From Burkholderiales bacterium (lineage in GTDB: Bacteria; Pseudomonadota; Gammaproteobacteria; Burkholderiales; Burkholderiaceae), in assembly GCA_021287185.1 (NCBI GenBank), contig JAJTAZ010000011.1:124001-188000 (forward strand): a DNA stretch of 64,000 nucleotides. The letters run 5' to 3'. Under the pieces are notes generated by a model. The model ran no database searches. It saw nothing but the letters and a program-made list of their open reading frames with translations, and was not told the origin of the DNA. Every line of letters starts with the position of its first letter. Position 1 is the stretch's first letter. The translations under genes and the position numbers were made by a program. This document shows, piece by piece, positions 21,801-41,117 of the stretch.

Positions 21801-22134
21801 GGTACATACGCTCATTGGCAGTGAGCAAGCCCTCATTCAGTGCAGGGCTACACACCTGCGCAATCAGGTTATCCATCGCCCGCTCGGACAGTGGATAATC
21901 CTGCCCCGCAAAATGAAATCGCCTTTGCGCCAATGCCTCGCGCAATAAGGGGCGCAACACCACCTCATCGGTTTTACCCCCACGCATGGACAGCGCAGCA
22001 TCGGGCGACAAAAACCGCCAGCCTAATTGAGTGAGCAGGGTCAGCGCAGGGAGTTTTGCGCTGTATTCCTCTTGGAATTTGGGCATTGCTTGGTTCATAG
22101 CGTCGTCATCCAATCTTTCATTCAATCCAATCAA
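18817..22134 (-). CDS. hsdR: Type I restriction enzyme R subunit
   Basis: A 1105-residue motor and nuclease subunit. The N-terminal PD-(D/E)xK nuclease has RPDVVCFVNG and LVVVEAKRP (about 164-179). Then comes a superfamily 2 helicase with Walker A HTTGSGKS (about 357-364) and DEGH (about 464). The C-terminal part is helical and would bind the M2S methylase. Its start overlaps the fic stop by four bases (ATGA). It is separated from hsdM and hsdS by about 5 kb that holds a CBASS cassette, a coiled-coil gene and fic. Confidence 0.95.
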   Translation of the reverse strand: MIGLNERLDDDAMNQAMPKFQEEYSAKLPALTLLTQLGWRFLSPDAALSMRGGKTDEVVLRPLLREALAQRRFHFAGQDYPLSERAMDNLIAQVCSPALNEGLLTANERMYHQLLYGISVTEFIDGKKVTPTIALIDWQNITHNNFTFTEEFSVLRSGGLDTRRPDVVCFVNGIPLVVVEAKRPDGNAKKGPTIDEGISQSLRNQRHDEIPRLFVYSQLLLSINGHEGRYGTCETPAKFWAAWREEDVSDAQMHAIKNTRLTDAQIQGLFEHRPADDVRWYQALIAGGDLAVTGQDVLLMSLLTPSRLLDMVRYFTVFDSKFGKLVARYQQVFGIRRLIERINTRRADGGREGGVVWHTTGSGKSLTMVFLSKTLILHDTLKACRILVVTDRVDLEKQLSDTFAATGEFTGRTDKQASLANSGAKLAQMIGKGTERIIFSLIQKFNSATKLPECFNDSADLIVLVDEGHRSQGGENHTRMTLALPKAAFVAFTGTPLLKNDKTEGKFGKMIHAYTMQRAVEDGTVTPLLYEERIPDLDVNERAIDSWFDRITEGLTDEQKADLKRKFAKKGELYAVDDRIRLIALDIANHFVKNIDDGLKGQLACDSKLTAIKYKQYLDEAGLFESAVVMSAPDTREGNTSVDEESMPIVAKWWKDNVGSTDEQVYTSEIIKRFEKDDKLKLLIVVDKLLTGFDEPRNAVLYIDKPLKEHNLIQAIARVNRLHPQKKFGLLIDYRGILSELDTTLIKYQELASRTQGGYDVADIDGLYQQMSTEYKRLPQLYKELWAIFDGVHNKSDIEQLRQVLVPRMQDKDGELVDVHLKVREDFYEALSAFTSCLKVALQSATFFEDKSFSDDDRKHYKETVKQLSSLRQLAQQDAGERVDYDEYAQQVKKLLDKHVVGVGVKEPTGVYEVSKMGQKPEPSEWNEDKTRNETDIIKTRVTKTIEQGLRDDPYAQEAFSKLLRQVIEEAEKLFEHPLKQYMLFHEFETQVQARRLNDIPDVFAGNHHAQAYFGVFKKNLPEAFVTMDEHTQNTWVNLAHEVDLAVETSVAEHSINPQNIEAEIRKKLLPKMFNVCKAHGGGMDQAKRIVETIVQITRVGLNHV

Positions 22135-23141
22135 TCGTGGTCAATGTACCTGTCCAGCACACGCCAATGACCCTTTTTATCTGAGCCAACGCGCTCAATG
22201 TATGTGCCACGCAAGGCACGTATGCGTCGCTGTATGGTGGGCACAGAGCAATTCAAATCTTGTGCCAGTTGGCTTTGGTTAATGCGCGGCAGTTCACGCA
22301 TCATGCGCAGAATCTGCCGATCCAAATCATCCAGCGCATTTACCCCATCATTTACACCATCATTTACCCCATCGTGTTTGAGTAAATGCGCCTGCAAATT
22401 AGCATGAATCACATCGAGCATAAACTCAACAAACAACGTTGACTCACCCGCGCGATCGGCTTGACCGAGGGCCGCATAATACGCTGCCTGTCGTTCATGG
22501 ATCAGCGTCTCAATCGGCAACCACGCCAACTCAGAGCGCCACTGTGACAAAATCAAGGTTTGCCACAAACGCCCCATGCGACCATTGCCATCAGCAAAAG
22601 GGTGAATGAACTCAAACTCATAATGAAATACACAACTGCTAATCAGCGGAGGTAAATCAGTGAACGCCAACCAATGCAACAAATCCCGCATCAACTCAGG
22701 TACACGTGAGGCTGGTGGGGCAAGGTGCACGAGTTGCTGGTTTTGATAAATCCCCACACCACCCGAACGATACGCCCCACACTCATCGACCAACCCAGAC
22801 ATCAGGGCGCGGTGCGCCGCCAACACATCCGCCTCACGGTGCGCCACCCAAAGTGGCATTCCCTCATACGCGGCAAACGCATTGCGTACCTCGGCAATCT
22901 CCCGCACCGAGCCACGCACCGCCTTGCCCTCAAGCACCGCCGTCACCTGAGCTACACTCAAAGTATTTTGCTCAATCGCCAAAGACGCTTGAATGGTGCG
23001 AATGCGATTGCCACGGCGCAAGGTGGGCGTGAGCGTGGTGTTCGCCATGGCAGACCAACGACCCAGTAACTCGCTAATCTGCACCACCCGATTGAGCATG
23101 TGGGGCGTGATGGTGAGGGGTGGGGTGTAGTTGGTCATCAT
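22131..23141 (-). CDS. Fic family protein with winged-helix domain
   Basis: A 336-residue Fic protein, probably an AMP transferase or related. The active motif HPFADGNGRMGR is complete (around 180-195). An inhibitory-helix-like motif SLAIEQN at 53-59 lies N-terminal to it, as in class II Fic proteins, with Q in place of the usual G. The C-terminus has a helix-turn-helix (INQSQLAQDLNCSVPTIQRRI). Between the two is a DGVN triple repeat encoded by three 12-base units. Fic genes of this layout are often found in type I restriction loci. Confidence 0.9.
   Translation of the reverse strand: MMTNYTPPLTITPHMLNRVVQISELLGRWSAMANTTLTPTLRRGNRIRTIQASLAIEQNTLSVAQVTAVLEGKAVRGSVREIAEVRNAFAAYEGMPLWVAHREADVLAAHRALMSGLVDECGAYRSGGVGIYQNQQLVHLAPPASRVPELMRDLLHWLAFTDLPPLISSCVFHYEFEFIHPFADGNGRMGRLWQTLILSQWRSELAWLPIETLIHERQAAYYAALGQADRAGESTLFVEFMLDVIHANLQAHLLKHDGVNDGVNDGVNALDDLDRQILRMMRELPRINQSQLAQDLNCSVPTIQRRIRALRGTYIERVGSDKKGHWRVLDRYIDHD
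22337..22372. repeat. Three 12-base tandem repeats inside fic
   Basis: Three units of CATTTACMCCAT (M is A or C) in tandem encode DGVN three times on the minus strand. The unit is in frame, so copy-number change would alter a linker length without frameshift. Confidence 0.85.
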
Positions 23142-23395
23142 TGCCCTTTATGTTTATTGTGATAATGGGGCAATAAAAAGCCACCAAGGTTACGCATTGT
23201 AAAGAGGCGTGGTGGCTGTGTTACCGTCATTATCGTTGATTGCTGCACATGAGTCAATACGTCACCGCTGTATGCACAAACATCGTTAAGCACGGCTTCT
23301 GAATTCAGAAGCGTGCCGTTTATTTTAGATCCTTGGGGAGGTACGAAAATTTTCGCACCGTATCCTTCTTGGAGTTTCTGAGTTTCTAAAATCAT
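23138..23395 (-). CDS. Possible 85-aa protein in the fic leader (doubtful)
   Basis: This frame ends with an ATGA overlap with fic, which favours it being translated. Against it, the segment contains a strong promoter (23229-23257) and a terminator-like hairpin (23180-23216), and the encoded sequence has no domain I recognise. It may be a regulatory leader rather than a gene, or a remnant of a phage gene. Confidence 0.3.
   Translation of the reverse strand: MILETQKLQEGYGAKIFVPPQGSKINGTLLNSEAVLNDVCAYSGDVLTHVQQSTIMTVTQPPRLFTMRNLGGFLLPHYHNKHKGQ
23180..23216 (-). terminator. Terminator-like hairpin in the fic leader
   Basis: On the minus strand GCCACCA pairs with TGGTGGC across a 23-base loop and is followed by TTTTTATT. 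It lies between a promoter and the fic start, so it could end transcription from the CBASS side or act as an attenuator. Confidence 0.45.
23229..23257 (-). promoter_or_regulatory. Promoter for fic-hsdR
   Basis: On the minus strand TTGACT (23252-23257) and GATAAT (23229-23234) are 17 bases apart, near the sigma-70 consensus. Start of transcription would be about 80 bases before the fic ATG. This lets fic-hsdR-peptidase be expressed apart from the CBASS genes. Confidence 0.6.
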
Positions 23396-23441
23396 GAACC
23401 ATCTCTAGCAAAAATAAATGTGACTTTGATTACCATAACCT

Positions 23442-24032
23442 TCAGGGACAAATTCGAAACACAATGTTTGAACACCACAGACCAAAAACGCACATTGCAA
23501 CGATCACGAATGTGGTTAATGACAGCGGAATCTTATCGCGAAAAAATTTAAAATTTAGCTGTTCATCAATCCAGTCGATTTGATGCTCCCAAAAAAATTT
23601 ATAATGTGCGCACCAATTGCTAAATAAAATTTGGTGAGAATTACTGATTTTTGTATACCTTTGTTCGATGAGCGACAATTGTTCTAAATGCTCATTTGTT
23701 GGGTTAGTTGATGATTTTACTTTCCGATACAAAGTTTTCAGTTCATTAAATAAATCAATGAGTAAATTCCCATTTTGGACGTAACTGTCCTTTTTTGAGT
23801 CATATAACGAAATATAAATCCCAACAATCCCCAAGATAACGAGAGTTGCAGAGATGAATTTAGTATTTAGACTCTCAAATATTAGCGCATATATACCAAC
23901 AACCATAGAAAAGAAACCAATTAGACCAGGTACTTTCGAAACAATATCAAAAGTGGCAAAATGTTTTTTCGCACCAAATCCAATGTTATATGCAGTTTCT
24001 GCGATTTGCTTTAAACAATCTTCTTTATTCAT
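23442..24032 (-). CDS. SLATT-domain membrane effector of CBASS
   Basis: A 196-residue membrane protein. Two hydrophobic helices (about 35-52 and 59-77) near the N-terminus, then a helical cytoplasmic region with a conserved-looking LSLIEQRYTKISNSHQILF stretch, and a third hydrophobic segment at about 171-193. This fits the SLATT class (SMODS- and SLOG-associated 2TM effectors), which are thought to form pores when a cyclic nucleotide is made. It starts 12 bases after the CD-NTase stop. The call depends strongly on this neighbour; the sequence itself is diverse. Confidence 0.8.
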   Translation of the reverse strand: MNKEDCLKQIAETAYNIGFGAKKHFATFDIVSKVPGLIGFFSMVVGIYALIFESLNTKFISATLVILGIVGIYISLYDSKKDSYVQNGNLLIDLFNELKTLYRKVKSSTNPTNEHLEQLSLIEQRYTKISNSHQILFSNWCAHYKFFWEHQIDWIDEQLNFKFFRDKIPLSLTTFVIVAMCVFGLWCSNIVFRICP

Positions 24033-24044
24033 GACTCTTCCTTC

Positions 24045-25343
24045 CTATTTGATTGGTACGTCAATTGAAGCGCGTGCGACAACCACTCCTCCTCGAATGG
24101 CATAGCATTCCACAATATGCTCACCAATAAAGTCCGTGGATTCATGTTTTTCATTACTTCCTCGGTCGCTTTCAATTTGACCTCGTATGCAATCACGACG
24201 TTCAGCTTCCAACCCCCTGTTTAATACCTTCCATTTAAGTTGGTATGGTTGTGGAATGTCAGTTTTAGTTACAAAGAACCTTAGTTTTTTGTGCGCCCTA
24301 AGTGGCAATTTGTTCAATAACATATAAGCAAGCGTATGCTCTCGAAAACCATTTTGAGTAACATCACAATCCATTTCAATATTGAATTTCACATCAATAG
24401 GGAATCTATCCTCTATAAATTCCTCCGTATTTATCCATGAGTTAGATTCCAATGCGGCTGATTTTTGCAGTGCATCACCCATCGGAAAACTTCGACCAAA
24501 GACTTTTTTCCATTTTTTCCCGACATCTGAATCTTGTTCGGAATTTATTGCCTTTAAGCATAAGTCATAAGTATCGTTAGCCTTTTTCTGAAATTTCTTT
24601 TTAACCTTGACATTTTGATTACTTCCAGGAGCTCTATAAAAATCTCGGTCAGTTTGTTCTGCTAAAAACTTAAAAAAGTCTCTACACATCCAGTCAAAAT
24701 AATAGAAACTTTTGTCGTCATATTCAGTTGTTGAATTTAGAAAATTATATGCAAGGGTATCAATTAACAAACCACCCATTTCAATACCATGTTGATTTTT
24801 CCATGCACGCGCCATTTTGCATAGTGATCTTAAATTTTTATTTTTTTGAACATTCAACTCTCTTATTGCTTGCATTTCCTGACGAGGCTTTGTAATTTTC
24901 CAACTTCCACCATTGTAAGTATCAGGATATTTAAATTGAGTGTTGCCCTCTGCATCAAATTCCTCAAATACTGGTTGTACTTCAATGTGAAAATTAGTAT
25001 AAGTTACGGTAACAACCAATCTATCAACTCGGACATCCGTTTTAGGGTATCTTGCTTTTATTGCATCCCTCACCCCATTTAATAATTGTGTTTGTTTCCC
25101 ATCTTTATAATTAATCCATTCACTTTCTGGCATTATGTAAAGCATATCCAAGTCCGAGATTCCCTTAATACCTGTATATCTTCCATATGAGCCGACTTGC
25201 AATGTGTTCGCTGTGGTTGATTCTGAATCTCTAAATTTTTGATTTAGAACCTTTGTAATTTCTCCGTAACGTGAGCTGATCTGATCTGCGCTATCAACTT
25301 TTAGGTTGCCTAAAAATTCTTCGAACATTGTAGCTATAGACAT
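24045..25343 (-). CDS. CBASS CD-NTase (SMODS nucleotidyltransferase with AGS-C sensor)
   Basis: A 432-residue nucleotidyltransferase. The motif GSYGRYTGIKGISDLDMLY (51-69) carries the GS and the two metal-binding Asp residues (64 and 66), and Glu121 in FHIEVQPVFE is the likely third ligand. The C-terminal 130 residues (from about 300) match the AGS-C sensor domain, ending with HIVECYAIRGGVVVARASIDV. Such enzymes make a cyclic nucleotide signal after phage infection. The start at 25343 (MSIATMF) has GAGG upstream and lies seven bases after the DUF2188 gene. Clearly more AT-rich than hsdR and fic. Confidence 0.9.
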   Translation of the reverse strand: MSIATMFEEFLGNLKVDSADQISSRYGEITKVLNQKFRDSESTTANTLQVGSYGRYTGIKGISDLDMLYIMPESEWINYKDGKQTQLLNGVRDAIKARYPKTDVRVDRLVVTVTYTNFHIEVQPVFEEFDAEGNTQFKYPDTYNGGSWKITKPRQEMQAIRELNVQKNKNLRSLCKMARAWKNQHGIEMGGLLIDTLAYNFLNSTTEYDDKSFYYFDWMCRDFFKFLAEQTDRDFYRAPGSNQNVKVKKKFQKKANDTYDLCLKAINSEQDSDVGKKWKKVFGRSFPMGDALQKSAALESNSWINTEEFIEDRFPIDVKFNIEMDCDVTQNGFREHTLAYMLLNKLPLRAHKKLRFFVTKTDIPQPYQLKWKVLNRGLEAERRDCIRGQIESDRGSNEKHESTDFIGEHIVECYAIRGGVVVARASIDVPIK

Positions 25344-25350
25344 TTTTACC

Positions 25351-25584
25351 TCACTTTTTATCAGTTGGAGGATGTGGATCGTTACCATAATTATTACCTG
25401 CACGGATTTTGCCATCACGTCCGTGGATTTTGGTATCCGATTGTTGATTACGGGCGATTTGCTGCGCTCTTTGCGTGGCTTCGGCTTGGGTATCTGTCAC
25501 CTTAGTGGCTTTTGAATTCCCTGCACCTTTAACCGCCCATCCATCAGGATGAGGAACAACGTGTTGATTTTTACCTTGACTCAT
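25351..25584 (-). CDS. DUF2188-like small protein
   Basis: A 77-residue basic protein. HVVPHPDGWAVKGAG followed by ATQRAQQIARNQQSD and IHGRDGKIR is the layout of DUF2188: a small beta sheet and a helix, of unknown function. The start at 25584 (MSQGKNQ) has AAAGGA upstream; a longer frame would add 36 unlikely residues. It directly precedes the CD-NTase gene, so it may be part of the CBASS operon, although DUF2188 genes occur in many other settings. Confidence 0.75.
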   Translation of the reverse strand: MSQGKNQHVVPHPDGWAVKGAGNSKATKVTDTQAEATQRAQQIARNQQSDTKIHGRDGKIRAGNNYGNDPHPPTDKK

Positions 25585-25735
25585 GATGTATCCTTTCAAT
25601 GGTTTATGGTTATCTGTTGTTTCGCTTATAACAATGTTTGCTTCTGGGCATTTTATTACTTTAATCTTTACAGCCACGTGCATAAGGAACATTGAGAATT
25701 TTATGTTTTATGAAAAAATCTGTGGCAGTAATGAA

Positions 25736-27211
25736 TCACCCCTTAATTTTCTCAACAAGTTTTGTAATTGGTTCAACGATTCCAGACAGTTTTTTATCAA
25801 AATCATCCAACGGGTGACCTGTATCCTTGACTTTATCTAAAACTTCAGCAGGGTTTTTGGCAATGGTTTGTATAGATCCTTCAAGCAATTTTTCAAGCAA
25901 TTCTTTACTGGTCTGGTCATCTTTGTATAACTCAAGCACCTGTGATTTATAACCCTCGAAACTTCTTGAAACAACCTCTTTATGCTCATATTCGTGCTCT
26001 AACCTAAAATACTGGTTCGCTTTTTTAGCATAAGAATACGCAATCCAAATAACTGGCGAGATAAAGGAAGCACGATAAAGCATTGCTACGTACCACACAT
26101 CCGACTTTGGCCATAAACCAAAACTTTGCATCATGTAGGTGATTGCAAGTATCGCAACCAACGCAACAATCATCCGCTGGAAACGTTTTTCGCTATCTAT
26201 TTTGAGTTGTTGCACAGCATCTCTTGACTTTCCAAAAGCATGCGCCAAACTTGCGTTTGTTGCAGCTTTTAACAAACCTTCAATTTCTTGCTTTTTGGCA
26301 TCCTTGTATTTATCAAAGGCTAAAATATAACCATCTATTTTTTTCTTTTCATCTGCGATATACACTTCAAATTGTTTATGCAGTTCATCGACCAGTTCTT
26401 TTTTAGATTTGGTTTTTGTGATGACCTCCTCACCTTCCTTGTCTTTTGATACAGTGGTTGAACCAGTAATATATTCAGCTATAAAGGAACTGATTTTATT
26501 TTGGTTAGCTTCCAAATCTTCAACCAACTCATCAATCTGAGCTTTTACAGAATCGGTTTCATCATCTCCGTCAATTAACTCTGTTTTCAACTCAAGAATT
26601 TCATCTCGTAACGTACTTGCTTCGGTGTTTTTGTTTTTAATTTGCTCCAGATAACCGTCATCACCGAAGATTTCTTCATGAACTCCTTTAATATGTTCGA
26701 ACTGAGATTTGTAAGACTCTGTATCCTCATCGTCTTCAAAACACAGATTATAAAAAGTCTCAATTTCATTACTATAGCCATCAATTTCAGTTTTGATGCT
26801 CCTAACCTCTCCTGCAGTCTTTGTAATCTCATCAAAGGATTTAGCTGCTAATTTCCGATTGGCTAATGAATCGTTAATAATCTTGCCAACTCTATGGTTA
26901 AAGTAACCATAGCTGTGCAGTAACTTATCCAATTCAAAAGCATGTATAACGCATTGCGCATAATAACTTGAGTTGGTGTATGAATTTATGTGCTGAATGA
27001 GACCAGTTAATTGAGTTTGTATGCTGTTTGTTAAAGCAGATTCCTCTTTCGAAGTGAACTCCGTTTTCAGCACAGAGATACACCGAGTCAACATCTGTTT
27101 CAATGCCATCAAATTAGTGGACATATGGGTCAACGATGGTGCGGTCTCTGCTGTCCATGTTTGGAGTATCGGCTCAATTTGCGCAACTTGTGCATGGATG
27201 GTGTTAGGCAT
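25736..27211 (-). CDS. Coiled-coil membrane protein of unknown function
   Basis: A 491-residue protein I do not recognise as a named family. Residues 1-150 are helical, about 150-345 are a charged coiled coil, two hydrophobic helices lie at about 358-376 and 393-411, and about 80 helical residues follow (EYEHKEVVSRSFEGYKSQVLEL). The start overlaps the hsdS stop by eight bases, so it is translated with the methylase genes. A 150-base gap separates it from the CBASS cassette. Similar membrane-plus-coiled-coil proteins occur in defence regions, where they may act as abortive-infection effectors; that is inference. Confidence 0.7.
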   Translation of the reverse strand: MPNTIHAQVAQIEPILQTWTAETAPSLTHMSTNLMALKQMLTRCISVLKTEFTSKEESALTNSIQTQLTGLIQHINSYTNSSYYAQCVIHAFELDKLLHSYGYFNHRVGKIINDSLANRKLAAKSFDEITKTAGEVRSIKTEIDGYSNEIETFYNLCFEDDEDTESYKSQFEHIKGVHEEIFGDDGYLEQIKNKNTEASTLRDEILELKTELIDGDDETDSVKAQIDELVEDLEANQNKISSFIAEYITGSTTVSKDKEGEEVITKTKSKKELVDELHKQFEVYIADEKKKIDGYILAFDKYKDAKKQEIEGLLKAATNASLAHAFGKSRDAVQQLKIDSEKRFQRMIVALVAILAITYMMQSFGLWPKSDVWYVAMLYRASFISPVIWIAYSYAKKANQYFRLEHEYEHKEVVSRSFEGYKSQVLELYKDDQTSKELLEKLLEGSIQTIAKNPAEVLDKVKDTGHPLDDFDKKLSGIVEPITKLVEKIKG

Positions 27212-28451
27212 AACAATTCTCCAGTTTAACCCGCCGCTTGCCAGTCAATAACTGCTGCATCAAGGCTTTTTTCTCTTGTTTGAGGGCTTCGAGTTTGGTT
27301 TGTAATAAATCGACTTCATTCTCGGCAATCTTTAGTACACCGCCGATTTTTTTTTGCTCAGCAATATCTGGGTAACTAATCAAAATACTTCTGAAACTAT
27401 CTTGTGATACAACATACCTCTGCCCACTTCCATCGGCTAAGCGATTGACCTGCTTTCTAAATTGAGGTGTAGTGAAAGCATAGGCTTTGAAATTTAGATC
27501 CCAAGGTTCATTAATTCTATATCTAACCACATGATAGCTATAACAGCATTCAGAAATATCTTCAGCCGCCACAGCGGGGATTCCGGCCTCCTCTCGTGTT
27601 TCAGAAGATGGTGTAAAAAAAACATCTCCCTTTCGGATATCGCAATCTCTGATTTTTGACGGTGGAGCTGTAACCCAGTGATTTAAGTCCTGAGAATGAA
27701 TAAAGCTATTGTTAAATACATCGGTGAAATTTAGTAATCGAACAGGCACTTCGCCCTCGACTACTTTTTTGTCCACACCCGCACTTTTCACTAACCCAAT
27801 TTTCCCAATAGTTGAATGATTCCACCGTTCACCAAACCTCACCCCATCCTCATCCAACAATCGTTTTTTGCCTGTGAGCAGTTGTTGCATCAGGGCTTTT
27901 TTTTGATGTTGGCTGTTGGCGAGTAGTTGCTCGGTGGTGGTGATGGCTTTGTCCCACGTGGATAGGATTTGAGCGATTTTTTGTTGTTCGGGGAGTGGGG
28001 GCGCAGGAACTTGTATTGACTTCACAATTGAGCCGCTTAAGTTCTCTTGACTGCCACTGTTACTTAGGTTACGAATGTTATCGTATTGAGAACGCAGATA
28101 TTGATAATAATAATCCACGCAAAAATTATGTTTGAACACAATGGCGGCACAGGCTTGATTCGTCGTGGCTTCAATTCCTAATTTAGCCACTTTGCCACGA
28201 GTTTTCCCCTGCCCATACATTGCTAGTAACACCGTTCCAATAGGAAATAATTTTGCTGAAGAATTATTCAGGCCATCCTGTGTAATTTTCTCGGTAGTGT
28301 CAAATATTTCGCAAAAGTCAATTTCTGCTGTTGTTACCCACGGAATTGCGCCGTTCCAGTACTCTGGCTTCCCCCTACTTGGTGTTCCACCCGAACTAAC
28401 GTTCGCGATGTCCTCAAGTGTTTTTTTACTCCACCCCTCAGGCACTTTCAT
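27204..28451 (-). CDS. hsdS: Type I restriction enzyme S subunit
   Basis: A 415-residue specificity subunit with two target-recognition domains. Each is followed by a conserved helix: PLPEQQKIAQILSTWDKAI with LLANSQHQKKALMQQLLTGKKR, and IAEQKKIGGVLKIAENEVDLLQTKLEALKQEKKALMQQLLTGKRR, read in parts. The first starts with GWSKKTLEDIANVSSGGTPSRGKPEYWNG. Its start overlaps the dinD stop (ATGA). Confidence 0.95.
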   Translation of the reverse strand: MKVPEGWSKKTLEDIANVSSGGTPSRGKPEYWNGAIPWVTTAEIDFCEIFDTTEKITQDGLNNSSAKLFPIGTVLLAMYGQGKTRGKVAKLGIEATTNQACAAIVFKHNFCVDYYYQYLRSQYDNIRNLSNSGSQENLSGSIVKSIQVPAPPLPEQQKIAQILSTWDKAITTTEQLLANSQHQKKALMQQLLTGKKRLLDEDGVRFGERWNHSTIGKIGLVKSAGVDKKVVEGEVPVRLLNFTDVFNNSFIHSQDLNHWVTAPPSKIRDCDIRKGDVFFTPSSETREEAGIPAVAAEDISECCYSYHVVRYRINEPWDLNFKAYAFTTPQFRKQVNRLADGSGQRYVVSQDSFRSILISYPDIAEQKKIGGVLKIAENEVDLLQTKLEALKQEKKALMQQLLTGKRRVKLENCYA

Positions 28452-29335
28452 TCGTTTTCCCCTTGTGGTTTTTCTCCATTCATTTCGCCGCTCCCCAAGA
28501 CGTCTGGGTTTTGTACGGCTTTTTTCTCGGTTGTTGTCAATCTCCGCTCTACTTTTTTTACATCTTCCGCTGGGGGTAGGTTTTCTGGGGTAATGCCACG
28601 GTTGAGCAGTGTTTGACGAACCGCTTCGTTATTGGTGACATGTTCGCCTGAAATTTGCCCTTCGGTGTGCATGTTTTGCGCACGCGCGTTGTGGATGGTG
28701 ATTTCGGTGGCGAAGTCTTTGGCTTTGAGGATGATGGTGGGGGCAAAGTCTGCCAAGGGACGATTATCAGGAATTTGCCATTGGGCTTTCATCGCGTGGG
28801 TGCTTTTGCCAAAGAGTGCGCGGTCGCCTTTGCTGCGAATCAGTGCGAAATTTTGATTGCCGCCTGTTTGCTCATAGATGACGCTGGAGAGTTCTTTTTC
28901 GGTATCGGAGAGTTTTTTGCGTGCCTGCAATCGCTCGGTTTCTAAGAGCCGTTGTTCAATCAGTTCGGCTTTGCGGGTTTGCATGGCAAAGTAGGTTTGT
29001 GCAAAGGCGATTTCTTGCTTGCGAGGGTCGCCGTTTTGTGCAATCAAATAACAGGCGTAGCGGGTGAGCATGATGTCGTTAATGTCTCGCTGGCTTCCTG
29101 AGCCTAATTCGACCATTTTCCCGACGTCGGCAAAATGGTCGTCTATGTTATGGCCAGAGAGTTCACATGCGGTTTTGGCTTTGGAGATCACGCCCTGAAA
29201 GTTATCCCATTTACCATAACCCAATAGATGCTGCAAATCACGCGCCAGCCAAAACTCAATGCCGTTTTCGGTCTGTTGTGCATGGTCTTCAAAACTCGTG
29301 GTCAGTGTTTGGATGAATTGCTGTTCCATCGTCAT
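28448..29335 (-). CDS. dinD: DNA damage-inducible protein D
   Basis: A 295-residue DinD-family protein. The N-terminal BRO-like part has FWLARDLQHLLGYGKWDNF, followed by AKTACELSGHNIDDHFADVG and DIMLTRYACYLIAQNGDPRK, typical of DinD. In E. coli, DinD is SOS-induced and inhibits RecA strand exchange. Here it is embedded between hsdM and hsdS with overlapping ends at both sides, a pairing seen in other type I loci. Its role there is not known. Confidence 0.92.
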   Translation of the reverse strand: MTMEQQFIQTLTTSFEDHAQQTENGIEFWLARDLQHLLGYGKWDNFQGVISKAKTACELSGHNIDDHFADVGKMVELGSGSQRDINDIMLTRYACYLIAQNGDPRKQEIAFAQTYFAMQTRKAELIEQRLLETERLQARKKLSDTEKELSSVIYEQTGGNQNFALIRSKGDRALFGKSTHAMKAQWQIPDNRPLADFAPTIILKAKDFATEITIHNARAQNMHTEGQISGEHVTNNEAVRQTLLNRGITPENLPPAEDVKKVERRLTTTEKKAVQNPDVLGSGEMNGEKPQGENE

Positions 29336-29451
29336 ATCCCAGTTATTTGGTTATTTAATTCGACCATCTCGGTGATGCCGACGATAGGGTCATAAGCATT
29401 TTTGCCACTGACTTCGCAGGCAGTCCGTGCGATGCTGTTGTGCATTTTCAT
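29332..29451 (-). CDS. 39-aa mini-ORF resembling a DinD fragment
   Basis: This ORF starts four bases after the hsdM stop and ends with an ATGA overlap with dinD. Residues IARTACEVSGKNAYDPIVGI and TEMVEL align with AKTACELSGHNIDDHFADVG and KMVEL of the DinD just downstream. It is either the relic of a second dinD copy or a small coupled peptide. The alignment is clear by eye; function is unknown. Confidence 0.5.
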   Translation of the reverse strand: MKMHNSIARTACEVSGKNAYDPIVGITEMVELNNQITGI

Positions 29452-29455
29452 GGGG

Positions 29456-30988
29456 TTATTCATAGCCCAACTCCGCAAGGTATTGACTCATTTGTGTTTC
29501 GATGTCGTTTAATTGCGCTTGCAGTTTGAGCCGCTCGACGCGTACTGCCATGAGGTCTATCTCGGCTTCTTCTTCAAAGGTATCCACGTAACGTGGTATG
29601 TTTAGGTTGTAGTCGTTCTCTTTAATCTCATCCAAAGTCGCAAGGTAGGCGTATTTGTCGACGTTGGTGCGTGCGCGGTAGGTGGTGATGATTTTTTCGA
29701 TGTTAGTTGCTGAGAGTATGTTTTGATTTTTACCCGATTCGTAGTCACGGCTGGCATCAATGAACAGTACGTTTGGGTCGGTTTTGGTCTTTTTGAATAT
29801 CAGTATGGCAGCAGGGATGCCTGTGCCGTAAAAGAGTTTTTCGGGTAGTCCGATGACGGTATCGAGTAGGTTTTCGTCTATGAGTTTTTGACGAATGACA
29901 CCCTCGGATGAACCCCGAAACAGTACGCCGTGTGGCACAACCACCCCCATGCGCCCTGATTTGGGTTTCATGGTTTCGATCATGTGGCTGATAAAGGCGT
30001 AGTCGCCTTTGGTTTTGGGCGGGATGCCTCGGCGGAATCGACTGAATTTGTCATTTTCCGCGCCATCATGCCCCCATTGGTCTAACGAAAACGGTGGATT
30101 AGCCGTCACGATGTCAAAGAGCATGAGGTCGCCATTTTTGTCCAATAGTTTGGGGTTGCGGATGGTGTCGCCCCATTCGATTTTGTGGTTGTCTTCGCCA
30201 TGCAAGAACATATTCATTTTGGCAAGTGACCATGTGGAGCCGATGGCTTCTTGACCATATAAGGCGTAGTTTTTACTGCCGTGGTTGGCAAGGATTTTGC
30301 GCCCGCATTTCATCAATAATGAGCCTGAACCACAGGCAGGGTCGCAAATGGTGTCGTTGGGCTGTGGGTCAAGCAGTTCGGCAATCAAGTCTGAGACTTC
30401 GGGCGGTGTGTAGAACTCACCTGCTTTTTGTCCACCACTGGCGGCAAACTTTTTAATCAGGTATTCGTAGGCATTGCCAATTACATCCAATGAACCCACA
30501 CGGGTGGGCTTGAGGTCCAGTTCTGGTTTGTCAAATACTTCGATAAGCGCACGTAGGATGTCGTTTTTTTGTTTTTCCTCACCTAGTTTGTCGGTGTTAA
30601 AACTGATGTCTTGGAACACGCTTTTGCCTGCGTCTTTGAGCTTGGTGCCGTTGGCTTCCTCTATGGCATGCAGGGCTTTGTCTATGCGTTCGCCATTGCC
30701 TGGCTCGTAACGCGAATCAAAAAGTTTGTAAAAACTGGACTGTGGCGGCAATACGAAACGTTCGTTTTTCATCATTTCATGGATGAGTTCTGGCTCATCG
30801 CCGTACTGCGCTTTGTAATTGTCGTAGTGGTCTTGCCATACATCGGAGATGTATTTGAGAAAGAGCATGGTCAGGATGAAATCTTTATACGTGTCCGCGC
30901 TGATGGTGCCACGAAAGACATCGCAGGCGTTCCATAATGCGTTGTTGATGTCGTCTTGCTTAATTGGAGTGACTTGGGTGTGTGTCAT
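29456..30988 (-). CDS. hsdM: Type I restriction-modification methylase (M) subunit
   Basis: A 510-residue N6-adenine methyltransferase. The SAM-binding motif DPACGSGSLL lies at about 215-224 and the catalytic NPPF motif in TANPPFSL at about 294-301. An N-terminal helical domain (HsdM_N) starts with NNALWNACDVFRGTISADTY. It follows the half-S gene after seven bases. Confidence 0.97.
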   Translation of the reverse strand: MTHTQVTPIKQDDINNALWNACDVFRGTISADTYKDFILTMLFLKYISDVWQDHYDNYKAQYGDEPELIHEMMKNERFVLPPQSSFYKLFDSRYEPGNGERIDKALHAIEEANGTKLKDAGKSVFQDISFNTDKLGEEKQKNDILRALIEVFDKPELDLKPTRVGSLDVIGNAYEYLIKKFAASGGQKAGEFYTPPEVSDLIAELLDPQPNDTICDPACGSGSLLMKCGRKILANHGSKNYALYGQEAIGSTWSLAKMNMFLHGEDNHKIEWGDTIRNPKLLDKNGDLMLFDIVTANPPFSLDQWGHDGAENDKFSRFRRGIPPKTKGDYAFISHMIETMKPKSGRMGVVVPHGVLFRGSSEGVIRQKLIDENLLDTVIGLPEKLFYGTGIPAAILIFKKTKTDPNVLFIDASRDYESGKNQNILSATNIEKIITTYRARTNVDKYAYLATLDEIKENDYNLNIPRYVDTFEEEAEIDLMAVRVERLKLQAQLNDIETQMSQYLAELGYE

Positions 30989-33035: not shown

Positions 33036-33569
33036 ATGCACATCAAAAACAAAATGAACCTCACCCAAATCATCTCAGGCGGACAAACAGGCGTGGATAG
33101 AGGTGCTCTGGATGCCGCACTTGCCGCACAGTTTTCTTGTGGTGGTTATTGCCCCAAAGGCCGAAAAGCCGAAGATGGAGTGATTGATGAGCGTTACCCA
33201 CTCACCGAACTGCCCACCGCTGGCTATCGCCAACGCACCATTCGCAATTTGAGTGAGAGCGATGGGACTTTGATTTTGTATCATGGGTATTTGTCTGGTG
33301 GTACTCAAGAGACTATGGTGCAGTGCATCCGCTTGCACAAGCCATACAAATTGATAGATGCACAGGCGGTGAATGTACAATATGCCAGCGAGTTGGCATT
33401 GGCATTTGTTGCCGATTTTGATATTGCTGTGCTCAATGTGGCGGGACCAAGATTGAGCCAATGGGCGGATGGGTATCAGTATTCATTAGAAGTCATTGCC
33501 AATCTGATTGATTTTTCTAATCCTTTAAAATTATCGGGGGAAACACATGTCAACCTTGCGACCTTGTGA
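33036..33569 (+). CDS. SLOG-family protein (YspA/putative molybdenum carrier type)
   Basis: A 177-residue Rossmann-like protein. IISGGQTGVDRGALDAALA is the signature of the cpYpsA/putative molybdenum carrier group of the SLOG superfamily, and SDGTLILYHGYLSGGTQET continues it. SLOG domains bind nucleotides, and several act as sensors in defence systems. The true start may be ATG 33054 (MNLTQII); if 33036 is used, the mRNA would be nearly leaderless given TATAAT at 33024-33029. The next gene, a small membrane protein, starts 13 bases on. One of only two plus-strand genes in the island. Confidence 0.8.
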   Translation: MHIKNKMNLTQIISGGQTGVDRGALDAALAAQFSCGGYCPKGRKAEDGVIDERYPLTELPTAGYRQRTIRNLSESDGTLILYHGYLSGGTQETMVQCIRLHKPYKLIDAQAVNVQYASELALAFVADFDIAVLNVAGPRLSQWADGYQYSLEVIANLIDFSNPLKLSGETHVNLATL

Positions 33570-33942: not shown

Positions 33943-34644
33943 TCAGCGCAACCCTCGCGCCACTGCCTCCATCAACGCCACCTGAGTTTTAAGTTCATCA
34001 TGGTGCACCTGTGTGAGGGCTATTTCGTCCAAAACAGTTTGTTGACGGGAGTGCAATTGCTCCAAGGTTTGTCTATTGGTAGCAATTTGAGTTTGAGTAT
34101 TTACCAACTCCAGTGATAAATTGGTTCGCGCTTGATTGACCGACTGACGTTGCTTCTCGATTTCTGTCTCTACCAATGCCAACTCTTCACGCTTACGTTC
34201 TATCGCATGAAACTCAGACTGACGATCGCTCATTAACTTGCCAATTCGGTTGATTCCAAATAATAACAACAGCAATATCAAACCCACCAATATCGTTAGT
34301 TTAACCACGGAAATTACCCATACCTGCCACTTATCCAAGCCCCCAAACCCTAAAGCAATTAGTTCACGACCTTCCTTTGTCATAGCATCTGTACACACAG
34401 GTATCAATACATCACAACCCTTCACAATCGAGGCTTGACGCTCTTTGTAATCTCGATTGTGATAAATCTCTTGTGCCCATGCATTGAAACTTTGCTCTTG
34501 CGCCTTGAGTTGGTGGATTAACTGGGTATTGAGTGCGAAGCATCGTTGGTTACTTTGTTGGCAGGTGTCTGAACATAGTTTTGTGCAACCGTTTAAACTG
34601 ATAACCAACACCAGCCCCATCAATAGTCTTTGAATTCTTGGCAT
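33943..34644 (-). CDS. Lipoprotein with membrane helix and coiled coil
   Basis: A 233-residue protein. A signal sequence ends in a lipobox-like LNGC, followed by several Cys residues (CTKLCSDTCQQSNQRC). A second hydrophobic helix at about 109-129 is followed by a long coiled coil (about 135-230). Not recognised. It overlaps the gene upstream by 25 bases, so the two form a unit. Topology could place the coiled coil in the cytoplasm. Confidence 0.6.
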   Translation of the reverse strand: MPRIQRLLMGLVLVISLNGCTKLCSDTCQQSNQRCFALNTQLIHQLKAQEQSFNAWAQEIYHNRDYKERQASIVKGCDVLIPVCTDAMTKEGRELIALGFGGLDKWQVWVISVVKLTILVGLILLLLLFGINRIGKLMSDRQSEFHAIERKREELALVETEIEKQRQSVNQARTNLSLELVNTQTQIATNRQTLEQLHSRQQTVLDEIALTQVHHDELKTQVALMEAVARGLR

Positions 34645-35402
34645 AGCACTTTCCTTTCAATACCTTCGGGTAAGGTAAACAAACCGTTTGTCTCCCAAAA
34701 TCGCTTCTTGTTTTGCACCCAACGTGGTATCTGATTGCCTCCAGTCAATGCTTGCTTATAACGTTTGATAATCGCTGGTGCATCCGAAATCAGAAACAGT
34801 TGATTGACAGCACCCGAGGTGATGGATTGTGCACAACCAATAATGAATTGGTCAAAAGGTCGATTCCACTTGGCAGTCAATTCGATTTCTACGCCAATGC
34901 GTGCATTGCCAATGTGCCAAATTACATCGTGTTGTTTCACACCTGACTCGGCAATACGTTGGATTTCCTTCTCGGTTTGAAAGCCAATAAATTTTTCACT
35001 GCCCATCACGTTTGCTGTGACTTTTTGGGCATACAGTCCATGGCGCAGAAAATCTTGCTTGATTTTGTGTGGGTCAAGTTCGTAAGGCAATAACTCATCC
35101 TCATCCAAAAGTCGTTCGACATCATTTAAGCCCGTGCGCGTTAGGGTCAGAATCTTGCTCGGCACACCTTTGGTAATACCTCCGTTTCCAGTGCGCGTCT
35201 CAATTAACAAACCCCGTTTGACCAACCGTGAAGACAATCCTCGCCCAACGTTTCCAGCCAAAGAATCAATGACCGATGGCGCAGACCAGCCCCATTTATA
35301 AATCCACTTCAAAGCCAATTGCTCCTTGTGTTTACCACGCGCACGAGGTGACATCCCTGCCAGCAAGCGTTCGCGGTTTTCGTTGCGTATTTCGTAATTC
35401 AT
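34620..35402 (-). CDS. Winged-helix plus nuclease-like protein of unknown function
   Basis: A 260-residue basic protein. The N-terminal half looks like a winged helix (QLALKWIYKWGWSAPSVIDS, then RLVKRGLLIETRTG). The C-terminal half has HDVIWHIGNARIGVEIELTAK, which looks like the core of a restriction-endonuclease-like fold. This resembles replication-relaxation or mobilisation accessory proteins of integrative elements, but I cannot assign it. ATG 35402 has AGGAT upstream; an earlier ATG at 35420 is possible. Confidence 0.55.
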   Translation of the reverse strand: MNYEIRNENRERLLAGMSPRARGKHKEQLALKWIYKWGWSAPSVIDSLAGNVGRGLSSRLVKRGLLIETRTGNGGITKGVPSKILTLTRTGLNDVERLLDEDELLPYELDPHKIKQDFLRHGLYAQKVTANVMGSEKFIGFQTEKEIQRIAESGVKQHDVIWHIGNARIGVEIELTAKWNRPFDQFIIGCAQSITSGAVNQLFLISDAPAIIKRYKQALTGGNQIPRWVQNKKRFWETNGLFTLPEGIERKVLCQEFKDY

Positions 35403-35463
35403 TTTGAACATCCTATCCATTTTTTATGTACGAAATGAATGCGCCATAGCCTATAGGGATGGT

Positions 35464-35933
35464 GTTGTTTTAAGCGTCCAACATCGTGCTTGCGGTATCC
35501 CGCACTCGCGAGGGCGAGACACACGACTGGCGTGGCTGAACGCCACACCTGAGCACTTAAAACAACCTCCGCAGGTATCCTGCTTCGCGTCTTTTACAAA
35601 GACTTGACGGCCCGCCGCTGAAAAGCGCGACTCCCCTGCTCGGAGGGCGTATGCCAAGGCATCCTTCGGTCTGCGACCGACCCTCGTGCCTCTCTGCGCT
35701 CTCGCTTTTAGAGTCACGGCTACACTTTCGTGTAGTCCGAACAGGGGAGTCGCGCTTCGCTTGACGGGCGGGGCTGCGCCCCCCAAACCCGAACCGACTC
35801 GCTTGGGCGAGTCTTTGCCTGCGCGACGCTTTGATTTTGGACGATTGTCCAAAATCAAACCTGCTTGGCAATTCGGATTCGGCTCCCCCCAGCCCCGTGC
35901 TACCGCACGGGGTGGAGGCTGAACGCCTCCACC
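35464..35933. repeat. Array of nested hairpins
   Basis: This GC-rich, gene-free stretch has at least eleven inverted repeats. Pairs: 35464-35474/35556-35566; 35491-35495/35500-35504; 35505-35509/35514-35518; 35532-35536/35542-35546; 35623-35644/35736-35757 (22 bases, one mismatch); 35720-35725/35730-35735; 35770-35774/35778-35782; 35796-35802/35807-35813; 35830-35842/35847-35859 (13 bases, perfect); 35893-35900/35905-35912; 35911-35919/35925-35933. Open frames exist in several phases but look like translations of palindromes. A structured RNA or a DNA replication signal is likely. Confidence 0.75.
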
Positions 35934-36039
35934 GCTACACGGCTGAACCCCATTTTGTTTGTGACACATTCATTTCGTGGTTGAATCAGTTAACATTTTT
36001 GAGTCTATTTGACCCAATTGCTTTGTTGGTGTGGTGAGA

Positions 36040-36153
36040 CTGGCAGAACTGGTAAGTCTGTGAGAACAATTCAGCAATATTTTAGTGAAACGCCTATAAA
36101 TAGGCTGTTTCACCAGTATTGCCAGTTCTGCCACGCTCGCCACACTTACCAGT
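36040..36153. other. Candidate replication origin of the island
   Basis: TGGCAGAACTGG (36041-36052) and its complement (36122-36133), and ACTGGTAAGT (36048-36057) and its complement (36144-36153), form overlapping inverted repeats. Between them lies a hairpin with arms GTGAAAC/GTTTCAC (36085-36113). It sits directly past the end of the primase-helicase gene, where P4-like elements have origin sequences bound by their primase. Function inferred from place and repeats. Confidence 0.45.
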
Positions 36154-36162
36154 ACCGCCAAA

Positions 36163-38241
36163 CTAAGCACAGGCTGGACTTTGATTCACCAAGTGCGGTG
36201 AAATCGGTGGCAGACACCAGTATGTCTCGGATGGAAACGTATTGGTGCGCTGTCGCACTACTTTTAAAGCCGTGCCAGCACGCTCAACACTGCGCCAACT
36301 GATGGATGGTCGTTCTTCAACAATGCTTTTGATATCGCTGACTTTGAGCGATGAGCCATCTTTGAGTAAGTCGATCAGCAGTTTGGATGGTTCAGTCAAA
36401 TTTTCTGTGTCATCTGCATTGTCGAACGTAAATTCTTTGAACAGCTGACTTGCCGTTTCTGCGCGATACTCGCCCCATACGATGCGTGAAGTTTCGATTT
36501 CTTGACCCAAATCATTTAATACCGTATGCGATTCAATCGTGTATTCATAACCACCGATGAGTGGAGCAAGGTTGTTCTTGATAATCGCGACCACACAAGT
36601 ATTGTCACTGTCGCGTCGTTTTGTACCCCACGCCACCCGTGGCACGGCGATGTAAGCTTGACTGCCGAGTACATCGTCACTGATGTTTTGAGCATTGCTG
36701 CTTTTACGGTAGTGGGTGATGCCGATGACCGCACAGTTGAGTTCCTGCGCCATATCGACAATCGGCTGTAAGCCTGAACGAACATCACTGGATTTGTTGC
36801 TGTCGCCTGCAACCACCGAGACGATAGGATCAATGATGATGAGGCCAATATCACCTATTTGCTCGGCTTTGGCTTTAAGGTCGGGCAGGTCTATCGCAAA
36901 GTCAAATGGTCGATATCGACCATTTGGTTCAGTCACACCTTGCACCAAATGAATGCGGTTCATCTGCGCGGATGCAGCTTTGAAGCGTGGTGTGATGACA
37001 GTACTGATATCATCTTCACCTGACCACATCAAGATGCTAAATGGAGGATTAACCGAGCCATCAGGTAAGTGCTTGCCTGCTGATAACTTGGCAGCAATGC
37101 TAATAGCCAATTGTGTTTTACCAGTCCCAGCCTGTCCTGCAAGCAAAGTCAATTTACCGAGGGGGAGCCAGTTTTTTATCAACCAAGCGATTGGTTCCAT
37201 CTTGACTTGATCAAGACTGATGGTGTCCACCCCTTTGGTACCTGCCGTGTGATGTTGGCGTTCATCAATTGGACTTTGCACCAACGGTTGAGATGTAGGT
37301 GGTGGTTGATTGAGCGCAGCGTTGATTTGACGCGCAACTTCTTCAAGTCCAGCCAATTGGTGAAGATCGTTAAAGTCTGTGGGCTTTTGACTCGCATCGC
37401 AGTTGGCAAAATCTGGAATCACCAAGCACGCATGGATGGCTTTTGCTGCTTCAGAGGCTTTTTGCACACCAATGTTGACTTCGCCCCAAGTATCGTTGTC
37501 TGCCGCTATGATGATGGTTTGGTCAGGCTTTTTGCTTTTAGCAATGTGCTGAGCGACTGGCAGTAGATTACCAGCATCAAATGCCACGATGACTTGGTAG
37601 TTGGTCGCTTGCGCAATGCTCGCGCCTGTGGCAAAGCCTTCGCAAATAACGTAGATGTTGCTATCGTTTTTGCTAATTTGTAAGTAACATCCTTTCTTTT
37701 TGCCACCCGTCATATACTTTTTTGAACCATCGGGCGATATGAACTGGATATTGACGATGTAGGGCTGTCCTTGCTCATCATCCCCGTCACAGATAGGTAC
37801 AACCAACGTGTCTGTATTTCCAAGCACTTTGCAACCATAAGGCCGAATGCCTTTGCGTTTAGCATAAGCGTTGTCCGTCGTTGCGTCGCGAGTGCTCAAA
37901 ATTAGCTTTTGCGCTCGGATTTTGACTTCTTGGTGCATTTTGGCTTTTGCTTCAGCATACTGTTGCTTTGCTTTTGCAATGCTTTCAGCATACGCTTTGC
38001 GTTCCACCCCCGAAAGGGTTTGTACAGATTTGGAACACCAGACTTCACTCAAACCTGTGCGCCAATTCCCGCATGCGCCAACAAGCAGATCCCCATGTTC
38101 AAATAGTGTGTACCAACCACTGCTTTGGTCAGTTTTATCACCTGCGACTTTGAAGCGGTGGAATTTCCCATCAATAATTATTGGCTTTACGTGTTGCCCC
38201 ACTTTGTTTAACAAGCTTTTAAATTCGAGGAGGTGGTTCAT
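36163..38241 (-). CDS. Primase-helicase-like replication protein (Toprim and AAA domains)
   Basis: A 692-residue protein. The N-terminal region is primase-like; a Toprim domain spans about 195-260 (VICEGFATG, AFDAGNL, AADNDTWGE). A RecA/DnaB-like or RepA-like ATPase follows with Walker A GQAGTGKT (about 370-377) and Walker B GLIIIDP. A C-terminal winged-helix-like part ends the protein. Such proteins replicate P4-like satellites and plasmids. The start at 38241 (MNHLLEF) is chosen because it overlaps the AlpA stop as ATGA. Confidence 0.85.
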   Translation of the reverse strand: MNHLLEFKSLLNKVGQHVKPIIIDGKFHRFKVAGDKTDQSSGWYTLFEHGDLLVGACGNWRTGLSEVWCSKSVQTLSGVERKAYAESIAKAKQQYAEAKAKMHQEVKIRAQKLILSTRDATTDNAYAKRKGIRPYGCKVLGNTDTLVVPICDGDDEQGQPYIVNIQFISPDGSKKYMTGGKKKGCYLQISKNDSNIYVICEGFATGASIAQATNYQVIVAFDAGNLLPVAQHIAKSKKPDQTIIIAADNDTWGEVNIGVQKASEAAKAIHACLVIPDFANCDASQKPTDFNDLHQLAGLEEVARQINAALNQPPPTSQPLVQSPIDERQHHTAGTKGVDTISLDQVKMEPIAWLIKNWLPLGKLTLLAGQAGTGKTQLAISIAAKLSAGKHLPDGSVNPPFSILMWSGEDDISTVITPRFKAASAQMNRIHLVQGVTEPNGRYRPFDFAIDLPDLKAKAEQIGDIGLIIIDPIVSVVAGDSNKSSDVRSGLQPIVDMAQELNCAVIGITHYRKSSNAQNISDDVLGSQAYIAVPRVAWGTKRRDSDNTCVVAIIKNNLAPLIGGYEYTIESHTVLNDLGQEIETSRIVWGEYRAETASQLFKEFTFDNADDTENLTEPSKLLIDLLKDGSSLKVSDIKSIVEERPSISWRSVERAGTALKVVRQRTNTFPSETYWCLPPISPHLVNQSPACA

Positions 38242-38471
38242 TGCTGACCCCCTAATTTTTTTAAAGCTTCTCGCAAATCGCCCACACGCCATGTATTTAT
38301 TCCACCACCTATTTTTTCAGGTTTTGGAATTTTATTTGCTTTTATCAACCGCCACACAGTACTTCTTGATATTTCGCCCCAAAGCAGTTGAACGGTTCGG
38401 ACTTTCACACGCGCATCATCTGGCGATCCTGTGAAATTCTTTAGCTCATTAATATGATCTGGTTTTTTCAT
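38238..38471 (-). CDS. AlpA-like DNA-binding regulator
   Basis: A 77-residue helix-turn-helix protein. QLLWGEISRSTVWRLIKANK and INTWRVGDLREALKKLG match the AlpA/excisionase-like MerR-type fold of P4-like islands, where such proteins control integrase or excision. It overlaps the primase start. Paired direct repeats (38552-38584) upstream may be its operator. Confidence 0.8.
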   Translation of the reverse strand: MKKPDHINELKNFTGSPDDARVKVRTVQLLWGEISRSTVWRLIKANKIPKPEKIGGGINTWRVGDLREALKKLGGQQ

Positions 38472-39530: not shown

Positions 39531-40832
39531 TTACAGTTTGGTTAAGCTCACAACAATTTTTTCAATCTCATCCGCATACCATTGAACCATTTCTATCCGC
39601 TCATCTAAAAACTCTTCTGGTCGCTCATAAGCCGCTTCAACTGCGTTTGGATTTTTATGCGCAAGTTGAAATTCAATCGCACGTTTGATAAATAGTTTGC
39701 TCTTTGTTGCTTTCATCCTCATGGTTGTACGAAAACCGTGCGGAACTGCGCGAGGCTTACCTTCAACCGAACCATCATAACCTACCGAGCGCATCAATTT
39801 GCTTAGAGTGGAATCACTGATGCACTTGCGCATACTAGAACGTGATGGAAATAAAAACTCACTGCTGCCTGTATATCGCTTTAGTTGCTCTATGATTGCT
39901 ATGGATTGACGCGATAACGGTACAATATGATCGACTTTCATTTTCATGCCGCCCCCACCCGTTTTATAAACTTCGGGGCGTTCTGAGGGAATAGTCCACA
40001 GACAAGTTTCGAAATCAATTTCTTTCCACATTGCACCACGTAATTCCGTTGTACGCACACCAGTCAAAATCTGCAAGCGAATCGCCAACTTAGATGTGAT
40101 GTAAACATCTGGGTTGGCATCCACATCTTGCAAAAACTGAGGAATCGCTTCAAATGGAAGAGAATCAAAATGCTTGGTTTTCGGTTTGATTAAGTCGTCA
40201 GCTTTAATACTTGTCACTGGATTATTTTCAATTAGTTGGTGTACAACAGCATAGTCAAAAATATTTTTAATTCTGCGCAATACACGTCCCGTTTGATCGC
40301 CTATTTCATTTTCTTGCATTCTTTCCAGCAGTGAAACACATTCTATCGCTCTAATTTCGTTAATAGGACGTTTGCCCAACTTGGGAAACGCATGGCGTTC
40401 CAGTGATTGCCAAATCTTTTTGACATACCGCTCATCCAAATTTTTCTTGCGTTTGCGCCACTGCATCCACTTCTCAGCCACAATTTCAAATGTGTTTCCT
40501 TTTTCAAATTGTCTGAGTTCTTTGTCTCGTCGTTTTTGCTCGGTTGGGCTAATGCCTTGTTTCAATAGCATTTTTGATTTAAAACAAGCCGCTCGCGCCT
40601 CCGCTAAACTAACGAATGGGTATACGCCCAAACCTTCAGTGCAATCTGAACCTTCAAATTTAAAACGAAATGCCCACCGCTTCGCACCATCGGGGTATAT
40701 TTCAAGACGCAAGCCACGGTAAGTTTTATCACCATCCAATATTCGCCAAAGGGTAGGTCGAGGCTTGGCATTTTTTACAGCAAGATCGGTTAACGGTTTA
40801 TTGGGATTTTTGACGTTTTCAGAGTGGCTCAT
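39531..40832 (-). CDS. int: P4-type tyrosine integrase
   Basis: A 433-residue site-specific recombinase. The N-terminal arm-binding domain (DUF4102 type) covers about 10-95 (LTDLAVKNAKPRPTLWRI). A SAM-like core-binding domain follows. Catalytic residues: Arg in TGVRTTELRG (about 257), HGFR (about 361-364) and the Tyr in VEAAYERP (about 400). It lies 200 bases from tRNA-Leu(GAG), pointing away from it, as in islands inserted at a tRNA 3' end. Confidence 0.93.
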   Translation of the reverse strand: MSHSENVKNPNKPLTDLAVKNAKPRPTLWRILDGDKTYRGLRLEIYPDGAKRWAFRFKFEGSDCTEGLGVYPFVSLAEARAACFKSKMLLKQGISPTEQKRRDKELRQFEKGNTFEIVAEKWMQWRKRKKNLDERYVKKIWQSLERHAFPKLGKRPINEIRAIECVSLLERMQENEIGDQTGRVLRRIKNIFDYAVVHQLIENNPVTSIKADDLIKPKTKHFDSLPFEAIPQFLQDVDANPDVYITSKLAIRLQILTGVRTTELRGAMWKEIDFETCLWTIPSERPEVYKTGGGGMKMKVDHIVPLSRQSIAIIEQLKRYTGSSEFLFPSRSSMRKCISDSTLSKLMRSVGYDGSVEGKPRAVPHGFRTTMRMKATKSKLFIKRAIEFQLAHKNPNAVEAAYERPEEFLDERIEMVQWYADEIEKIVVSLTKL

Positions 40833-41030: not shown

Positions 41031-41045
41031 TTGGTGCCGACGACG
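41031..41045. other. Candidate attachment site (tRNA side) of the island
   Basis: The last bases of tRNA-Leu including CCA. An imperfect copy is at 16998-17011. The core may extend further into the tRNA. Confidence 0.45.
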
Positions 41046-41117
41046 AGAGTCGAACTCGTACAGCCTAAGGCCACTACCCCCTCAAGATAGCGTGTCTACC
41101 AATTTCACCACGTCGGC
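41032..41117 (-). tRNA. tRNA-Leu (GAG)
   Basis: An 86-nt tRNA with CCA encoded. The acceptor arm GCCGACG pairs with CGTCGGC at the ends; the D-loop has AAATTGGTAGAC. The anticodon stem CTATC/GGTAG encloses TTGAGGG, giving anticodon GAG. It has a long variable arm, as for class II tRNAs, and TTCGACTC in the T-loop. It follows secG, as in many betaproteobacteria. Confidence 0.95.

Follow-up and report, generated by a model that had tools for sequence, protein, structure and literature searches.

The hairpin array at 35464–35933 is very probably an origin of transfer (oriT). It would belong to an integrative mobilizable element that encodes its own MOBC-type relaxase next to the array, and this relaxase would nick the array so that one strand could pass into another cell. 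The array is found within a window of 64,000 nucleotides, the whole stretch of Burkholderiales DNA analysed here. The oriT is already known as a kind of sequence, and this block would add a new example. Read on the minus strand, the elements of the array are ordered as a signature hairpin M, element A, element B, a 22-bp inverted repeat and a second signature hairpin M (Table 1). It is quite possible, and is proposed here tentatively, that MOBC relaxases across Pseudomonadota share an oriT code composed of strand-coherent GTNCA hairpins of single-stranded DNA and of A and B around a long inverted repeat.

Table 1. Features of the hairpin array and of the surrounding island in the window.
Feature	Positions	Strand	Remarks
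Partner gene, 233 aa, hydrophobic segment and coiled coil	33943–34644	-	
Predicted MOBC-type relaxase, 261 aa, winged helix and PD-(D/E)XK nuclease	34620–35405	-	
Hairpin array, proposed MOBC-type oriT	35464–35933	-	Signature loops read on the minus strand
Outer stem arm GTTGTTTTAAG	35464–35474		Pairs with 35556–35566, encloses M2
Signature hairpin M2, GTGGC-GTTCA-GCCAC	35532–35546	-	
Outer stem arm CTTAAAACAAC	35556–35566		Pairs with 35464–35474
Long inverted repeat, other arm TCCGAGCAGGGGAGTCGCGCTT (minus-strand reading)	35623–35644		
Long inverted repeat, arm AAGCGCGACTCCCCTGTTCGGA (minus-strand reading)	35736–35757		
Element B, hairpin GGGGGC-GCA-GCCCC	35770–35783	-	
CCAA-loop hairpin, GACTCGC-CCAA-GCGAGTC	35796–35813	-	
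Perfect 13-bp stem, TTTGATTTTGGAC / GTCCAAAATCAAA	35830–35859		Arms 35830–35842 and 35847–35859
Element A, GGGGGGAGCCGA	35879–35890	-	
Signature hairpin M1, GGTGGAGGC-GTTCA-GCCTCCACC	35911–35933	-	9-bp stem, loop GTTCA
Iteron-like repeats CCAGT..TGCCA, candidate replication origin	36029–36160		Separate from the array
Toprim and AAA_25 primase-helicase (island replication)	36163–38292	-	
AlpA-like excisionase/regulator	38238–38471	-	
Tyrosine integrase	39531–40832	-	Beside tRNA-Leu(gag) at 41032–41117

The preliminary description, made from the sequence alone, reported an array of nested hairpins here, and the folding of the block bears this out. As one strand, positions 35440–35985 fold with RNAfold to −249.8 kcal/mol on the plus strand and −282.8 kcal/mol on the minus strand (z = −8.9 and −10.6, respectively). 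On either strand, dinucleotide shuffles fall far short of this, and none is equally stable. The two stems described earlier are both located: the 22-bp stem with one mismatch, spanning 135 bases, is 95% complementary, and the 13-bp stem is perfect. A further perfect 11-bp pair makes up the outer stem. The contrast in composition between a GC-rich block and an AT-richer island also holds, with a G+C content of 0.59 (35440–35985) versus mostly 0.36–0.49 per kb elsewhere in the island. The earlier statement that no gene in the block is convincing can be upheld. A 172-aa ORF crossing the block has no Pfam family, and its clear match to the ORF of the equivalent block of Hydromonas is limited to 18 aa. 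The whole block has no match in DNA searches of plasmids and phages, and among 398 genomes of the family a clear partial match is seen in Hydromonas only. The block was placed next to the island replication genes; this is correct for one side, where the primase-helicase is encoded, but the neighbor on the other side is the relaxase gene.

The 261-aa protein is, as judged from its sequence and its structural model, a relaxase of the MOBC type, and is thus predicted to nick DNA. No Pfam family is assigned to it. It matches the NCBIfam model MobC_subf (NF041423) with an E-value of 6.7e-8 and 32 bits against a curated cut-off of 200 bits. NF041423 represents a narrow subfamily, and proteins from Klebsiella, Proteus, Pseudomonas and Vibrio alginolyticus also score under its cut-off, two of them from plasmids that MOB-suite types as MOBC. 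Residues of catalytic type (H122, D160, E173, E175 and K179) are invariant in 24 relatives. The AlphaFold model (pLDDT 92) is composed of a MarR-like winged helix (residues 20–104) and a restriction-endonuclease-like domain (residues 118–261). The latter resembles VC1899 (Z 9.1), PaqCI and BstEII, and the structural matches of MarR-like and endonuclease-like type are moderate overall (Z 8–9). Sequence search found no solved structure for this protein. A scan of genome contigs with the relaxase alone gave no match, and neither did scans of viral contigs. MOBC relaxases are described with the same make-up, a winged helix plus a restriction-endonuclease-type active site (PMC12857230). TraX of pAD1, a MOBC relaxase from Gram-positive bacteria, shares it too, but the bind site of pAD1 consists of five direct repeats at 70–120 bp from nic (PMC12857230), unlike the array in the window.

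Similar arrays accompany relatives of this relaxase gene on plasmids and islands from many Pseudomonadota. In Hydromonas duriensis (locus L009, on the same contig as L015), the primase gene, the array and a diverged relaxase gene are arranged in the same order as in the window. In plasmids of Sulfuriferula and Thiothrix, an array lies upstream of the relaxase relative, and no such primase is annotated in the fetched regions. Based on these two cases, the array is tied to the relaxase, not to the primase. Structured noncoding DNA also lies ahead of the relaxase gene in plasmids from Klebsiella, Proteus, Pantoea, Eleftheria, Pseudomonas and Vibrio alginolyticus, and it extends for 0.5–1 kb if the intergenic region is complete. 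In the 43.6-kb Klebsiella plasmids of the pKPC_CAV1392 type, a 1-kb hairpin array containing GGC-GTCCA-GCC precedes the MOBC relaxase gene as in the window, but it is on the opposite strand relative to that gene, and type IV secretion system (T4SS) genes follow. MOB-suite types pKPC_CAV1392 as MOBC. The array is downstream instead of upstream of the relaxase gene in L049, L050, L054, L061, L064 and L065, and among the relatives it is oriented either way with respect to that gene. Some relaxase relatives (Sulfuricella L014, L048, L051 and L057) have no array adjoining the gene. For instance, the relaxase relative of Sulfuricella pSCD (L014, 5551–5982) has no structured DNA upstream.

The arrays have a hairpin in common. 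The 11-mer GGC-TGGAC-GCC, or GGC-GTCCA-GCC in the complementary strand, is seen in 5 of 10 arrays, while no 11-mer is seen in more than 3 after shuffling. The relaxed motif GCGTNCAGC, a GC-GTNCA-GC hairpin, is present in 66 copies versus 5.9 expected (maximum 12 in 60 shuffles), and the reversed motif, used as a control, in 5 copies. Among 19 regions with at least two copies of GCGTNCAGC, 18 have all of them on one strand. An initial set comprised 26 hairpins from 16 loci, with six pairs each outside the fixed core; 93 of these 156 pairs are Watson–Crick, whereas 46 would be expected. For 59 copies from 25 arrays, stem pairs 3–9 are Watson–Crick in 228 of 413 cases, compared with 117 expected from 1000 arm swaps (maximum 149). 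Three or four types of Watson–Crick pairs are seen at each stem position, indicating covariation in the stems but conservation of the loop. Because the compared arrays are mutually related, these shuffle figures should not be read as strict probabilities. The CCAA-loop hairpin shows a compensatory change as well: it is GATTCGC-CCAA-GCGAATC in Hydromonas versus GACTCGC and GCGAGTC in the window. At the place of the perfect 13-bp stem, Hydromonas has a different, shorter stem. The 10-mer GGGGGAGCCG of element A is common to 10 of 25 arrays (shuffle maximum 4). Another 10-mer, CGCCCCAGCG, is also present in 10 of 25 arrays (e.g., L074 908 and 994), mostly those without GGGGGAGCCG.

The order of the elements resembles that of published putative oriT regions and, in part, that of the type plasmid. 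Klebsiella pMET1 was published as oriT-mobB-mobC, with nic sites within an inverted repeat, and its paper reports 90% identity of this region with HPI-ECOR31 (PMC2262945). The motif strand of pMET1 contains GGGGAGCC, GCCCCAGCG, GGGGGC-TT-GCCCC and a 22-bp inverted repeat (one mismatch), followed by two GCGTCCAGC hairpins. The window has the same succession of GGGGAGCC, a GGGGGC..GCCCC hairpin, a long inverted repeat with GCGCGAC..CCCC, and GCGTNCAGC hairpins, and its relaxase is of the MOBC kind, like that of pMET1. The arm of the window at 35736–35757 is the positional counterpart of the pMET1 inverted repeat reported to hold the nic sites (PMC2262945). The array of pMET1, however, is upstream of mobB and has two M hairpins after the inverted repeat, whereas the array in the window lies immediately before the relaxase gene on its upstream side, with one M before A and no recognised mobB. 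In CloDF13, the type plasmid of MOBC, the DNA upstream of the mobB homologue likewise holds four GCGTNCAGC hairpins, all on the same strand, together with a long inverted repeat. Unlike the window, it has no A or B by exact match, its relaxase is distant in sequence, and mobB is present. In Vibrio pTJ187-1, which has a curated mobC, four signature hairpins on one strand lie upstream of the coupling-protein gene. B is followed by a long inverted repeat in 9 of 11 loci compared, and the sequence of the inverted repeat varies by locus. CloDF13 and L039 do not have B, and CloDF13, pCVM19633_110 and Sulfuriferula do not have A. No gene for the coupling protein MobB is recognised beside the block in the window, the flanks being the primase-helicase and a protein with a membrane segment and a coiled coil; therefore the block is not filed as CloDF13-type oriT-mobB-mobC. 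A gene is seen at the position of the partner gene in the Sulfuriferula and Thiothrix plasmids too, and sequence comparison of these partner membrane proteins found no significant similarity among them. SGI1, another integrative mobilizable island, likewise has a GC-rich oriT with inverted repeats next to mob genes of its own (PMC6414798), but its MpsA resembles tyrosine recombinases and is not a MOBC relaxase.

A structured RNA, a single-strand origin, and a packaging or transfer signal had been suggested for the block earlier. The transfer signal is the suggestion that stands, based on the adjacent MOBC-type relaxase gene and on the element order of the type and published putative oriT regions. 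A noncoding RNA transcribed from the minus strand, either regulatory or a mobilization sRNA like sgm-sRNA of SGI1, would explain the strong single-strand folding, which is better on the minus strand, and the conservation of loops on one strand only. SGI1 depends on an sRNA whose gene lies between mpsA and oriT (PMC9299015). G.T wobbles exceed A.C mildly when arrays are oriented by the motif strand (64 versus 41; 36:17 in strong stems, with too few long stems in the rRNA control), as transcribed RNA would also give, but they are equally frequent (46 versus 45) in the first ten arrays oriented by the relaxase gene, which leaves the wobble comparison ambiguous between RNA and single-stranded DNA. 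Rfam shows no family at gathering score within the block, a result that an undescribed RNA would also give, and the weak Rfam matches to miRNA families (36030–36146) sit on the iteron-like repeats outside the block, far below gathering scores. Promoter- and terminator-like sites are no commoner than in shuffles, and in relatives the array may lie upstream or downstream of the relaxase gene and run in either direction. The RNA is thus improbable, and the earlier suggestion of it is not supported.

The adjacency of the primase-helicase gene, in both the window and Hydromonas, could instead point to an ssi- or Frpo-like single-strand origin or primase loading site, at which the Toprim primase-helicase would support complementary-strand synthesis. 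Against it, the same elements lie by MOBC-type relaxase genes with no such primase annotated nearby in Sulfuriferula, Thiothrix, CloDF13, pMET1 and Vibrio. The iteron-like repeats, which are between the primase gene and the array and are also present in Hydromonas (L009, 8370–8500), are a better candidate for the origin of the primase. As the sole role of the block this is a shade less probable than the RNA, and the block may act as a single-strand origin as a secondary function. That the block is a repeated palindromic element or a transposon remnant with no role in transfer agrees with its being palindrome-rich, GC-rich and noncoding. However, it is a single copy in the 2.03-Mb genome, and its ordered elements are common across bacterial orders and tied to one gene family, which leaves this explanation with hardly any probability.

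If the block is an oriT, its working would be as follows. The integrase would excise the island first. The relaxase would then assemble on the array and nick one strand within or close to the long inverted repeat at 35623–35757, a position suggested by analogy with pMET1 (PMC2262945). On the transferred strand, the GTNCA-loop hairpins would fold as single-stranded DNA and could serve as strand-specific sites for binding and for termination or re-ligation. The loops are strand-coherent, the array flips with respect to the relaxase gene, and evidence of RNA type is lacking; together these points suggest that the hairpins act on single-stranded DNA. No T4SS gene is recognised among the island proteins scanned, so the element is probably mobilized by a helper, with the transferred strand passed to the T4SS of a co-resident conjugative element. 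Binding by the relaxase, the nicking position, the identity of the transferred strand and the helper T4SS are all inferred.

The DNA processing by MOBC relaxases is poorly understood: the active site is of restriction-endonuclease type, no covalent intermediate has been observed, and the bind site is remote from nic (PMC12857230). A shared code, if true, would let MOBC relaxases use hairpin structure to recognise the transferred strand and to join it again. Extending from islands of Burkholderiales to plasmids of Klebsiella, it would make the oriT, the strand and the leading region predictable in MOBC elements, and it supplies specific loops and stems as targets for mutation. The open-access literature searched, which does not cover the original papers on CloDF13, pAD1 and HPI-ECOR31, contains no description of this family-wide hairpin architecture. 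A survey of anti-defence genes reported no leading-region enrichment for MOBC (PMC11541004). One possible reason is that the leading side was misassigned, given that the array may be found upstream or downstream of the relaxase gene and pointing either way. The results also suggest that several plasmids of Sulfuriferula, Thiothrix, Proteus, Pantoea and Eleftheria called non-mobilizable by MOB-suite carry a predicted relaxase and oriT.

A second att site, searched for as a direct repeat of the 3′ end of tRNA-Leu, is not found within the window. The proposed mobilizable element carries CBASS and type I restriction, and its region at 18817–30988 is defence cargo. Here, hsdR, hsdS and hsdM of a type I restriction-modification system are interleaved with the CBASS genes (23442–25418), which encode an oligonucleotide cyclase (24045–25418) and a 2TM effector (23442–24032). 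The same region encodes a SoFic-like Fic protein (22131–23141) and the candidate defence proteins PDC-S13 and PDC-S16. An abiF RNA of Rfam (39.1 bits versus a gathering score of 37) adjoins the defence genes at 23179–23216 on the minus strand. A circularly permuted protein of the YpsA/SLOG family (Pfam cpYpsA, 3.4e-48) is encoded within the island at 33036–33569.
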